Positions 1,764-55,999 of a stretch of DNA of 64,000 nucleotides are shown piece after piece; position 1 is the first letter of the stretch; each line of letters starts with the position of its first letter. The DNA comes from Methanothrix soehngenii GP6. GTDB taxonomy: Archaea; Halobacteriota; Methanosarcinia; Methanotrichales; Methanotrichaceae. The stretch is taken from contig NC_015416.1 in NCBI RefSeq assembly GCF_000204415.1, forward strand, positions 434,001-498,000. Reading direction: 5' to 3'. Both the position numbers and the translations under genes were made by a program. The notes beneath the pieces are model-generated. The model saw only the letters and a list, made by a program, of their open reading frames with translations, was not told where the DNA came from and ran no database searches.

Positions 1764-1991
1764 ATGAAGCTCAAGATCACTCTCGCCGGTCCAAAGGTGC
1801 ATGATGTCGGCTACCGAGTGTTCTTGCTCAAGAACGCAATGAACACCGCCCTGCCAGGGCTTTCTACCTACAACTGGGAAGCAGACGGCAGGCAACAGGT
1901 AATTGCCCTGGTAGAAGGGGATGAGGTTCGAATCAAAGCATTCCTCAAAAAGATTGAGATGGATAGGCTAGAGCTTGCTCAAGTCACATAA
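1764..1991 (+). CDS. Acylphosphatase-like protein, probably truncated at the IS element
   Basis: A 75-residue protein carrying the acylphosphatase-type signature near its N-terminus (GPKVHDVGYRVFL, compare G-x-V-x-G-V-x-[FY]-R) followed by a ferredoxin-like alpha/beta pattern. I chose ATG 1764; a TTG two codons upstream is also in frame. The frame ends at TAA 1989-1991, just before the left-end hairpin of the tnpB element. The usual final strand of the fold is not evident, so the gene was probably truncated by the insertion or an associated deletion. DNA right of the element does not continue this gene. Confidence 0.6.
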   Translation: MKLKITLAGPKVHDVGYRVFLLKNAMNTALPGLSTYNWEADGRQQVIALVEGDEVRIKAFLKKIEMDRLELAQVT

Positions 1992-2053
1992 ACACAGGCT
2001 GGAAGCCCCGCTCTTCAGGGCGGGGAGGAAAGCCGTAAGTAGCCCACCAAAAC

Positions 2054-2062
2054 CTTTATATC
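2054..2062 (+). promoter_or_regulatory. TATA box of tnpB
   Basis: CTTTATATC lies about 30 nt upstream of the tnpB ATG at 2087. This spacing predicts a leaderless or nearly leaderless transcript, common in archaea. No clear ribosome-binding site precedes the ATG, which agrees. Confidence 0.6.
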
Positions 2063-2086
2063 ACTTAGTGAATATACTGCCTACTG

Positions 2087-3259
2087 ATGACTGAGCAGGT
2101 GTTAACCGTCCAATGCAAGTTAAGTCCAACAGACTCCCAGGCCGAAGAGATGGAGGATACTCTGAAAGCCTTTGCGGATGCCTGCAATTGGATAAACCAG
2201 AATACGCCTGCTAAGCTCAGAAATAAGGTCCGTATTCAGGGCATTGTATACCAAGATGTTCGAGCTAAGTTTGGTCTTTCTGCCAATCTGGCAATCAGGG
2301 CTATCAATCGCGTTGCATCTAACCGTAAGACTGCCATGAAGGATCATTCATCAGTTAAGAACTTTGAACCAACCAGTATAGATTATGATACTAGGATCTT
2401 TGCTTTCAGAGAGAAAGACGAAGAAATCAGCGTGACTCTTCTTAGATCGAGACAACGAATCAAGTTGGTTCTAGGCGACTATCAGCGAACCAGACTCAAG
2501 GATTCTAAACCGACAAGCGCAACGCTTTGTAAGAAAGGATCTGAATACTATATCAACATCCAGGTTAAAAGCGAAGCACCGGAGCAGATACATGTTGATA
2601 CAGTTCTAGGTGTCGATCTTGGTATAACTGATATAGCTGTGACCTCCGAAGGCCAGAAGTTTGGCGGAAAGACTATCAAGCTAATCAAGAATCATTATGC
2701 GTCTATGCGTGCTGTTCTTCAACAGAAAGCCGTGAAAGGTACAAGGAGTTCAAGGCGAAGATGCCGAGAGCTTCAGCAACGACTATCAGGCAAAGAAGCA
2801 CGCTACCAACGGCAGATCAACCACGAAATCAGCAAAGCCATTGTGACCAGAGCCCAGGAGATTCCTGCAAAGATAGCTCTGGAAGATCTAACCGGAATTA
2901 GAGAAGGCGTCAACCAGAAAGCAGGAAAAAACCATAGACGAAGAGTCAATGGTTGGGCCTTCTACCAGCTTAAGGAGTTCCTTAGCTATAAGGCTCTCGC
3001 GGCGGGTGTTCCTCTGGTTCTGGTGGACCCCGCATGCACCAGCCAGACGTGCCATCAGTGCGGTGAGCATGGAATCAGGAATGGCAAGAGCTTCAAGTGT
3101 CCTGTGTGTGGTTGGTCTGGCGATGCTGATTTCAATGGTGCTAAGAATATAGCTTTCTTGGGCCGCTATGTAGACCGGCCTGGAGGCTCGGAAGGACTTC
3201 CAAGTATCAAGGCTGTCCTTTCAGGGCTACTGAAAGCTCCGGTCTTTAGGCCGGAGTAG
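2087..3259 (+). CDS. tnpB: IS605-family RNA-guided endonuclease TnpB
   Basis: A 390-residue TnpB with an N-terminal helical/OB part and a C-terminal split RuvC nuclease. The three acidic positions are visible: D in GVDLGITDIA (about residue 178), E in ALEDLTGIR (about 266) and D in GDADFNGAKNIA (about 345). A four-cysteine zinc finger (CHQC ... CPVC, about 323-343) sits between the last two. All key residues are present, so it is probably active. TnpB proteins cut DNA guided by an omega-RNA made from the right end of their own element. The last codons form the right-end hairpin. Confidence 0.93.
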   Translation: MTEQVLTVQCKLSPTDSQAEEMEDTLKAFADACNWINQNTPAKLRNKVRIQGIVYQDVRAKFGLSANLAIRAINRVASNRKTAMKDHSSVKNFEPTSIDYDTRIFAFREKDEEISVTLLRSRQRIKLVLGDYQRTRLKDSKPTSATLCKKGSEYYINIQVKSEAPEQIHVDTVLGVDLGITDIAVTSEGQKFGGKTIKLIKNHYASMRAVLQQKAVKGTRSSRRRCRELQQRLSGKEARYQRQINHEISKAIVTRAQEIPAKIALEDLTGIREGVNQKAGKNHRRRVNGWAFYQLKEFLSYKALAAGVPLVLVDPACTSQTCHQCGEHGIRNGKSFKCPVCGWSGDADFNGAKNIAFLGRYVDRPGGSEGLPSIKAVLSGLLKAPVFRPE

Positions 3260-3264
3260 TTTAC
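3113..3264 (+). ncRNA. Putative omega-RNA (reRNA) region of the tnpB element
   Basis: In studied TnpB systems the guide RNA is processed from the 3' end of the tnpB transcript and the element's right end, with the guide taken from flanking DNA. The corresponding stretch here ends in the hairpin at about 3237-3256. It matches 20106-20257 with two mismatches (at 3225-3226/20219 region ggcTgtcc versus ggcAgtcc, and ccGgtctt versus ccAatctt-type change near the hairpin loop), both compatible with the fold. The 5' border is set by that match, not by RNA evidence. Confidence 0.35.
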
Positions 3265-19967: not shown

Positions 19968-20105
19968 CGTTCCACCTTAAACCAAATTCTAGTGTATCAG
20001 TTCCAAAATAGCATAGCAGCATTTAATGCTATGTACTGCCCAAGACCGGAAAAGAAGAGATGGTCTCCCGAGGAACAGCTCCTGCAGCTGGACGCTGGAT
20101 GCCGG

Positions 20106-20257
20106 TGGTCTGGCGATGCTGATTTCAATGGTGCTAAGAATATAGCTTTCTTGGGCCGCTATGTAGACCGGCCTGGAGGCTCGGAAGGACTTCCAAGTAT
20201 CAAGGCAGTCCTTTCAGGGCTACTGAAAGCTCCGATCTTTAGGCCGGAGTAGTTTAC
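20106..20257 (+). mobile_element. Solitary right end of the tnpB element (152-bp remnant)
   Basis: This stretch matches 3113-3264, the last 49 codons of tnpB plus the right-end hairpin and TTTAC, with two mismatches. Nothing upstream of 20106 resembles the element. It keeps the third RuvC aspartate region and, more importantly, the whole stretch that would form the omega-RNA scaffold. It is either a deletion remnant or a retained guide-RNA source. Confidence 0.85.
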
Positions 20258-20302
20258 ATTCGCTCCGCGCATTCCTTGTGCTTATCTCCTCTGAAACGAG
20301 AG

Positions 20303-20830
20303 ATGTATCGCATGGAATTCGAACTGCATCCTGCGATCATCATCGAGAGCAGAGCCTTTGCAATACTAGTGGCTCCATTGCAGATGCTGATCGAGTCCCT
20401 CAACGATCATCTGGGCATCGACAGGTATCAGGTCCTCTACATCTGCGGAAACTACTCTCGCGTCCTGAGCAGACTGGATCGCAGGTTTAGAGATCTGGAG
20501 GTAAGAAGGGCATTTACCGTCTTCCAGCTGCTAACCGTCCTGGAGGAGAGCCACCACACCTTGATGATCCTGGAGCATGATCCCCTGCTTTACGAGGGGG
20601 CTGGAGAGATGGTGGAGTATGCATCTATGGCCATGAGAGAGGCAGCGAAGGGCAGCATTTTGCTTCTCTATTCCCCCACCTCCGATCCTTATTTAGAGAA
20701 GATGATGACTTATGCCGACAGAGTATTCTGCTTCGCCGAGGGGCCTTGTGCTGCGCCACGGCTTTCTGCAAAGAATAATCGAAAAACGCAAGCCAGTTCC
20801 ACTGGCCAGACCACCCTGGAGAGCTTCTGA
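20303..20830 (+). CDS. Unknown protein ending in a PCNA-interaction (PIP-box) motif
   Basis: About 175 residues from ATG 20303 (ATG 20312 possible). The last seven residues are QTTLESF, which fits the PIP-box consensus Q-x-x-[L/I/M]-x-x-[F/Y] at the usual C-terminal place. The body has an alternating alpha/beta pattern: YQVLYICGNYSR, HTLMILEHDPLLY (Walker-B-like) and KGSILLLYSPTSDPY. This could be a RecA-like fold without a P-loop, but that is inference. The TGATG overlap with the next gene shows coupled translation. I do not recognise the family. Confidence 0.6.
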   Translation: MYRMEFELHPAIIIESRAFAILVAPLQMLIESLNDHLGIDRYQVLYICGNYSRVLSRLDRRFRDLEVRRAFTVFQLLTVLEESHHTLMILEHDPLLYEGAGEMVEYASMAMREAAKGSILLLYSPTSDPYLEKMMTYADRVFCFAEGPCAAPRLSAKNNRKTQASSTGQTTLESF

Positions 20831-53776: not shown

Positions 53777-55054
53777 TCATTCTTCCTCCATATCCCGGAA
53801 TATGGTCTGCTCTCTTCCCGGTCCAACCGATACCGCAGATATTTCCACACCCAGCAGGTCCTCGAGCTTTTCTACATAATCGCGGGCATTCTCGGGCAGA
53901 TCGTCATAGTCTTTGACCTCGGTTATATCCTCCGTCCAGCCGGGCACTTCTTCATAGATGGGCTTGCAGCGGGCAAGGTCTGTGGTGCTCTCCGGCGGAT
54001 AGCCAAGGGTATCGCCGTCCAGATCGTAGCCCACGCAGATCTTTATGGGATTGATGCCCGTGAGCACATCAAGCTTGGTGAGGGCCATCTCAGTGTAGCT
54101 GTTGAGATATACGGACTTCAGGCCTAAGACGGCATCAAACCAGCCGCATCTGCGCGCCCTTCCCGTGGTGGTGCCGTATTCTCCACCCTTCTCTCTCATC
54201 TGCTCGCCCAGGGAATCGACTAGCTCCGTGGGCATGGGCCCCTCGCCCACCCGGGTGATGTAGGCCTTGATCACTCCCACCACGTTGTCGACCATCACCG
54301 GGCCCACGCCCAGATTTGCGCAGGCGCTTCCTGCGATGGTGAAGCTGGAGGTTACAAACTTCTGGGTGCCGTGAATGACATCCAGAAATGCCCCTTGAGC
54401 CCCTTCAGCCAGGACGCTCTTCTCCTCAAGGATAGCGATGTTGATCTCTCGCGAGACATCGGCGATCCTGCTCTTCAGTTTCTTTCCGATCTCCAGATAC
54501 TCATCGATGTAAGGCGCATATCTGACTACAGTCGGGTCGCCGCCCATATCAAGGATTGCTTTCTCCTTGCCAGGCGCGATCTCCTTCAGCTTGGCTTCCA
54601 GTAAGGCAGGATCGGTGAGGTCACCCATCTGGACCTCCTCGCGAGCGACCTTGTCCACATAGGCAAATCCAATGCCACGGTTTGTGGTCCCGATCTTTTC
54701 CGTCCTCGCCTTCTCACGCAGGCTGTCCAGCTCGATGTGATAGGGCATGATGATCGTCGTCTTGGGATCAATTCCCAAGTCGACCTTGATGCCTTCAGAC
54801 TCCAGGGACTGAATTTCATTCCATAAAACCCGGGGGTTAAGCACCACACCCGGCCCGATCAGAAGCCTGCGGCCGAAGATCGCGCCGCTGGGAACCAGAT
54901 GGAGCTTGTATGTCTTTCCTCCCACAACCACCGTATGACCTGCATTGTCGCCTCCCTGGAAACGAACAATGACATCGTAGTTCTCTGCCAGTAGATCTAT
55001 AACCTTGCCTTTTCCCTCATCACCAAACTGCGCACCGGTGAGTATTGTAAACAT
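53777..55054 (-). CDS. purA: Adenylosuccinate synthetase
   Basis: 425 residues. N-terminal GTP/Mg motif GAQFGDEGKGKVID, then GGDNAGHTVVV, GTTNRGIGFAY, GAQGAFLDV and TTTGRARRCGWFD. It joins aspartate to IMP with GTP as the first of two steps to AMP. It ends 39 bp from the convergent polX gene. Confidence 0.97.
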   Translation of the reverse strand: MFTILTGAQFGDEGKGKVIDLLAENYDVIVRFQGGDNAGHTVVVGGKTYKLHLVPSGAIFGRRLLIGPGVVLNPRVLWNEIQSLESEGIKVDLGIDPKTTIIMPYHIELDSLREKARTEKIGTTNRGIGFAYVDKVAREEVQMGDLTDPALLEAKLKEIAPGKEKAILDMGGDPTVVRYAPYIDEYLEIGKKLKSRIADVSREINIAILEEKSVLAEGAQGAFLDVIHGTQKFVTSSFTIAGSACANLGVGPVMVDNVVGVIKAYITRVGEGPMPTELVDSLGEQMREKGGEYGTTTGRARRCGWFDAVLGLKSVYLNSYTEMALTKLDVLTGINPIKICVGYDLDGDTLGYPPESTTDLARCKPIYEEVPGWTEDITEVKDYDDLPENARDYVEKLEDLLGVEISAVSVGPGREQTIFRDMEEE

Positions 55055-55099
55055 ACTCCGTGAGATGGCCGGTCACGTAGATAACTATTTTGATGGAAA

Positions 55100-55999
55100 T
55101 CATCCCTTTCTGTGATCCAGATTGGAGCAGACATGCTCTGCTATCGCTTCTGTGACATCTATTCCCAGGGCATCATAGATCCCTTTGCCTGAGGGGGTCC
55201 CGTTCACCTCTATTGTCGTCAGGCCATCCTTGCTCTCCAGGAGGTCGACGCCGCAATATATGGCACCAACGGCGCGGGCAGATCTCACCGCCAGGTCCTC
55301 CAGCTCACGGGTTTTCGGACAGGGGGTGGGCCGGCCACCTCGCGCCAGATTGCTGATCCATTCTCCCGGTGGAGCATTGCGATAGATGGCTCCCTGCAAT
55401 CTGCCGTCCACCACGAAAGCCCGGATATCGCGCGCTGAGCCGGAGGTGACATTGATAAACTCCTGCAGGTAGACCATCCCCCTCCTCTCCACTATCTCCC
55501 TCAGACTCTCGATGTCTGCCTGCTTGCTGCTCTTTAAGAGGATGATATCCTTTCCTTTATAGCCGAAAAGCGGCTTGGATACCGCCGTTTTAAAGGAATA
55601 AAGGGCCTCCTCGGCAATCTTTGGGCTGGTGGTGGCCACAGTCCTCGGTGTGGGCACCGAAGCGCCATGCAGCCTCCTGGATGTAGCATACTTGTTTGCC
55701 GCACTGGAGATGGCTTCGGGGGGATTGATGACTGAAATTCCCAACTCCACGAGGGCAGTCAGGGCCTCGAAGCGAAAGGAGACATCGACCGCCCCCCGCC
55801 TCCCCAGGTCGCGGACCACCAGGGCGTCCAGGTCCAGGAGGTTAACGTCGCCGCAACTAAAATCCAGCCTTTTACCGATTCCGCTTTTAAGCTCTGAGAA
55901 ATCAAGGAATGTCGCATCCATCTGCCGCCGGGAAAATGAGGCCATTAAAGCCTGAGCCGTCCAGTCGTCCCGGTCGGAGACCACGATTCCAACTTTCAT
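55100..55999 (-). CDS. RimK-like ATP-grasp ligase (cofactor glutamylation type)
   Basis: 299 residues. RimK architecture: N-terminal pre-ATP-grasp (MKVGIVVSDRDDW), then NPPEAISSAANKYAT, KPLFGYKGKDIIL (glycine-rich lysine loop), YLQEFINV, RAFVVDG and C-terminal TTIEVNGTPSGKG (metal ligands E/N). In methanogens close relatives add glutamate to tetrahydromethanopterin (MptN) or coenzyme F420 (CofF); which one cannot be decided by eye. It sits just upstream of purA and is probably co-transcribed with it. Confidence 0.85.
   Translation of the reverse strand: MKVGIVVSDRDDWTAQALMASFSRRQMDATFLDFSELKSGIGKRLDFSCGDVNLLDLDALVVRDLGRRGAVDVSFRFEALTALVELGISVINPPEAISSAANKYATSRRLHGASVPTPRTVATTSPKIAEEALYSFKTAVSKPLFGYKGKDIILLKSSKQADIESLREIVERRGMVYLQEFINVTSGSARDIRAFVVDGRLQGAIYRNAPPGEWISNLARGGRPTPCPKTRELEDLAVRSARAVGAIYCGVDLLESKDGLTTIEVNGTPSGKGIYDALGIDVTEAIAEHVCSNLDHRKG

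Follow-up and report, generated by a model that had tools for sequence, protein, structure and literature searches.

The 152 bp at positions 20106-20257 (forward strand) of the window, i.e., of the whole 64,000-nucleotide stretch of the Methanothrix soehngenii GP6 chromosome analysed here, are very probably (roughly 85%) the inert scar of a canonical insertion of a tnpB element that later lost its left part. This solo right end consists of the 3' portion of tnpB, third RuvC motif included, and the terminal hairpin.

The solo right end and its parent family

The sequence-only reading of this DNA had claimed a 152-bp match with only two changes to positions 3113-3264 (forward strand), the right end of a complete sibling element, with the remainder of the element absent. 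Both parts of this claim were borne out: the alignment of the two right ends is gap-free over 152 bp with differences at match positions 102 (T/A) and 130 (G/A), and the rest of the tnpB element was not found within 1.5 kb upstream of the solo right end. When the 12 copies of the genome are compared, the difference at position 102 turns out to be a polymorphism common to several other right-end copies, which leaves the one at position 130 (a G-to-A change at base 20235) as the sole change private to the solo copy. The match stops at the right boundary of the element, as set by comparing all the other copies. In the window, a 21-base probe drawn from the match's end hits just two places, namely the solo and the reference right ends, against 0.00 expected from shuffles.

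The 12 right-end copies of the 3,008,626-base chromosome can be divided into (i) eight complete elements of about 1,281 bp; (ii) three copies interrupted by other insertions (the pairs L027/L029 and L028/L031, as well as L026, for which the other half is apparently L030, now distant); and (iii) the solo copy. L026 and L030, apparently the two parts of a single tnpB element, both terminate in the same foreign insertion and lie about 260 kb apart on opposite strands. This layout suggests that the chromosome was inverted between two copies of the foreign insertion. An intact TnpB of 390 aa is encoded by four of the complete copies, and a fifth complete copy has no stop codon. The complete sibling in the window extends over 1984-3264 (forward strand), including its TCAC target (1984-1987), and carries an intact tnpB at 2087-3259 (forward strand; 390 aa) with Pfam matches to Cas12f1-like_TNB (82 bits) and OrfB_IS605 (30.7 bits). 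RuvC and zinc-finger regions are present in this parent TnpB, with PF07282 and PF01385 above the cut-off.

By its sequence features, the parent is an IS200/IS605-type element. The fixed target of that group is found here as TCAC, which starts the left end of the family in 10 of 10 cases and is also present in three empty sites. No tnpA lies within the element; the genome has six Y1 transposase genes, all of them outside it. Across the right ends L152-L209, the tetranucleotide that precedes the terminal hairpin changes in step with the one at the very end (CAAG/TGAC in 19, AAAG/TTAC in five and GAAG/TCAC in one, versus three discordant regex matches). Such a match between a four-base guide motif and the cleavage site is the Y1 recognition code. 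The intact siblings are, then, like the tnpB-only (IS1341-like) elements of IS200/IS605 in their TnpB, their fixed-tetranucleotide target and their subterminal hairpins with covarying four-base motifs, whereas the solo copy differs from such elements in having neither left end nor tnpB.

Insertion at TCAC and the probable deletion of the left part

The insertion point can be read from related genomes. In three relatives (G012, G017 and G013), the homologous gene is preceded by an empty site, TCAC|ATTCGC..., and the same ATTCGC... directly follows the solo right end. Since TCAC stands directly before ATTCGC... in these empty sites, it is the target and not part of the element; and because the empty sites match the right junction and TCAC begins all ten left ends, the insertion at this TCAC was canonical. 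The motif is not universal there, as it is absent at that point in three other relatives (G008, G005 and G015). The gene in question (20312-20830, forward strand) is conserved, has no assigned function and no Pfam match, and holds the insertion site in its leader; in relatives, homology begins exactly at the right junction. The block just 5' of it, at 20258-20290 (ATTCGCTCCGCGCATTCC...), is conserved among Methanothrix relatives, whereas its reading frame is not; it is perhaps a leader or promoter element.

The left side is of a different kind. The alignment of G012 and G017 with the window starts at the right junction, and 0 of the 6 kb of the window to the left of it aligns. The flank immediately at the left junction (20065-20105, forward strand) is a fragment of a recombinase-like gene, with 85-88% identity over 41 bp to G014 and G022; judging from its translation, the matching sequence in these two genomes looks like a tyrosine recombinase. 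The junction itself is abrupt, and neither direct nor inverted repeats were found to flank it. Both features would be consistent with one-ended transposition, in which the right end alone was inserted with an internal point of tnpB acting as a false left end. Such an event should have kept TCAC and the ancestral left flank; both are missing, and right-end-only transposition, exceedingly improbable on these grounds, was rejected.

An insertion followed by deletion best accounts for the site: (i) an IS200/IS605-type tnpB element inserted canonically 3' of TCAC in the leader of the conserved gene; (ii) a later deletion or rearrangement would have fused the unrelated-gene fragment to an internal point of tnpB, at the cost of the left end, some 1.1 kb of the element, TCAC as the target motif (TAM) and the ancestral left flank; and (iii) the leftover is an immobile right end, most likely inert. 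The empty sites of the relatives attest to the insertion step. The deletion step is one that we infer; the simplest account of the left side would be a deletion or rearrangement that broke within tnpB. The missing left part was also sought as a lone left end elsewhere; L030, the only candidate, is accounted for by a different copy that an insertion divided.

Another reading is that the right end has been kept because it now has a role in expressing the conserved gene downstream. It sits 54 bp ahead of the homology-inferred start codon and replaces the AT-rich upstream sequence of the relatives; however, no promoter-like box is present in or before it, and such a role seems very unlikely. What speaks against the scar reading is that the right end is nearly unchanged (one private change in 152 bp), retains helix P1 and could still act if transcribed. 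In any case, the solo copy is so young that neither its retention nor its decay is informative, and a single private mutation is too little to judge selection on it.

The solo copy as a putative omega-RNA

In TnpB systems with a reRNA or omega-RNA (ISDra2 and AmaTnpB, as well as the archaeal sotRNAs), the RNA comes from the 3' end of tnpB and the right end, with a flank-derived guide. The solo copy is alike in location and in length; by contrast, the nuclease gene is absent from the site, no Rfam family matches at the gathering threshold within the window, and the RNA is a predicted one. The sequence-only reading had proposed, next to a deletion scar, a stand-alone guide copy whose transcript, with a guide from the new flank, would direct the intact TnpB. 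In such a case, the solo right end would be transcribed from upstream, and its RNA would load intact TnpB made elsewhere and guide it to unoccupied copies of the site, for instance on incoming DNA.

Several features would allow this. The scaffold is long enough when compared with functional TnpB RNAs of about 150 nt (PMC8612924) and 126 nt (PMC10278001), and the intact 390-aa TnpB is available from four siblings. The predicted helix P1 is intact: its 5' arm, GUAGAC (20163-20168, forward strand), pairs with the 3' arm, GUUUAC (20252-20257, forward strand), which ends in TTAC, the putative right cleavage site, and this helix covaries across related right ends. The private change at base 20235 breaks one pair of the terminal hairpin (20230-20249, forward strand), and a mismatch at the same pair occurs in two related right ends. 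Because the predicted cost to the fold is small, it is not claimed that this change destroys the RNA; the fold energy predicted for the full RNA is nearly unchanged (-54.4 versus -55.2 kcal/mol).

The evidence on expression, targets and mobility stands against a working guide copy at this site. No TATA-like box was found in the 138 nt upstream of the solo right end, where the best site is no better than any of 500 shuffles. The would-be guide from the right flank (ATTCGCTCCGCGCATTCCTT; 20258-20277, forward strand) has TCAC directly before it in the three insertion-free relatives; near-matching empty sites for this guide exist in relatives, but no TCAC-flanked match was found in its own genome, where the closest TCAC-flanked site differs at two of 16 positions. 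Furthermore, having lost its left end, the copy is immobile. If transcribed by read-through, the solo right end could, according to the predicted fold, form an omega-RNA with a guide for which this genome holds no TAM-flanked target. A stand-alone omega-RNA at 20106-20257 is hence improbable. Of the two proposals, the deletion scar is the one favoured by the loss of TCAC, left end and old left flank, by the unrelated-gene fragment that makes up part of the left side, by the lack of a promoter-like element and by the lack of a TAM-flanked guide match; the guide copy is less well supported at this site and would be a likelier idea for other loci of this genome.

TnpB-less right ends in the genome and the genus

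A covariance model of the right end recovered 33 places in the genome at E values up to 0.01. The search for other solo right ends, suggested in the sequence-only reading, was rewarded: comparison with TnpB matches and tblastn turned up, in other parts of the genome, ten or more right ends that lack tnpB and retain omega-RNA-like helices. These include (i) a 397-bp element with three copies 98% alike (1957012-1957408, equivalent to L013:1148-1544; 54710-55106; and 736768-737164); (ii) a second family with two copies (178231 and 2467060); (iii) a third family, also with two copies (552947 and 734478); and (iv) single right ends at 2005436, 511673 and L151:893-968. The 397-bp element has TCAC at its left end, which is 85% like that of the TnpB element at 968068-969293, and its right end is 93% like the tnpB element of the window over 44 bp; its two ends derive from two different TnpB families. 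More TnpB-less elements or remnants with IS605-type ends and omega-RNA-like pairing were observed at L146, L147, L148, L149, L150, L151, L173 and L175; in L148, hairpins of the left and right ends appear to have been fused. Since a strict TATA pattern proved uninformative for the mini-elements, no claim is made on promoter retention in them.

Matches to the right-end model are present in 17 of the 26 genomes of the genus. With the 26 TnpB proteins of this genome as tblastn queries, which a divergent tnpB could escape, no tnpB was found at L185, L188, L190, L192, L195, L196, L197, L199, L200 and L209, in eight other genomes.

The pairing of these right ends was analysed in an alignment of 57 matches (45 of them distinct). 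P1 is 99.6% paired, and for the structure as a whole the covariation score reaches 0.451, versus at most 0.101 with the partners slid, in an alignment fitted to that same structure and hence favourable to it. The inner helix P2, which is outside the covariance model, was spotted by inspecting the same sequences and then tested by shuffling the 3' arms among sequences, on a set without the long-form right ends (the element of the window and the 397-bp element). With the initial arm rule, which took the wrong arms in two families, shuffles equalled or exceeded the observed pairing in 7 of 2000 cases for the TnpB-less set and in 98 of 2000 for the TnpB-linked set. A revised rule, set after that result and consisting of a narrower motif search with the offset fixed by hand for two sequence types, gave 83.3% paired in the TnpB-less set, where the shuffled mean is 66.0% and 0 of 5000 shuffles came up to the observed value; for the TnpB-linked set, the corresponding figures are 92.9%, 85.4% and 133 of 5000. 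The P2 pairing is supportive and not a clean test, since the same sequences served both to discover the helix and to tune the rule, and relatedness inflates the shuffle result.

Palindrome-associated transposable elements (PATEs) are terminal-only derivatives of IS605 without a transposase gene, and in one PATE, from Halanaerobium, the terminal 58 nt of tnpB are retained along with the whole right end (PMC3119063; PMC7290912). The 397-bp element has both palindromic ends, no transposase gene and three copies, and on these sequence features it and the similar mini-elements of this genome resemble PATEs. The solo copy is likewise a terminal-only IS605 derivative without a transposase gene; it differs in having one end, with no left end upstream of 20106-20257, where PATEs have both. 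Regarding the conservation of an omega-RNA scaffold in PATE-like elements, no report was found in the literature searched. One key paper outside that search reportedly discusses PATEs, and for this reason no novelty is claimed for the concept.

The idea of a non-autonomous guide appears more plausible, from their sequences, for the TnpB-less right ends at other loci, several of which are clearly on small mobile elements. It is a tentative possibility that the TnpB-less mini-elements of Methanothrix are mobile stand-alone guide-RNA genes, whose scaffold would be under selection, whose guides would act in trans with the TnpB of related elements and whose own insertion sites would be protected; 20106-20257 would then be an incidental truncated cousin. 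The solo site is of value as a clear case of IS605 decay whose insertion point is fixed by the empty sites of relatives. The wider TnpB-less pattern matters more than this site, and guide supply in trans is the more interesting question: if the TnpB-less elements of the genus do supply guides in this way, a single nuclease gene could sustain an entire population of non-coding elements.
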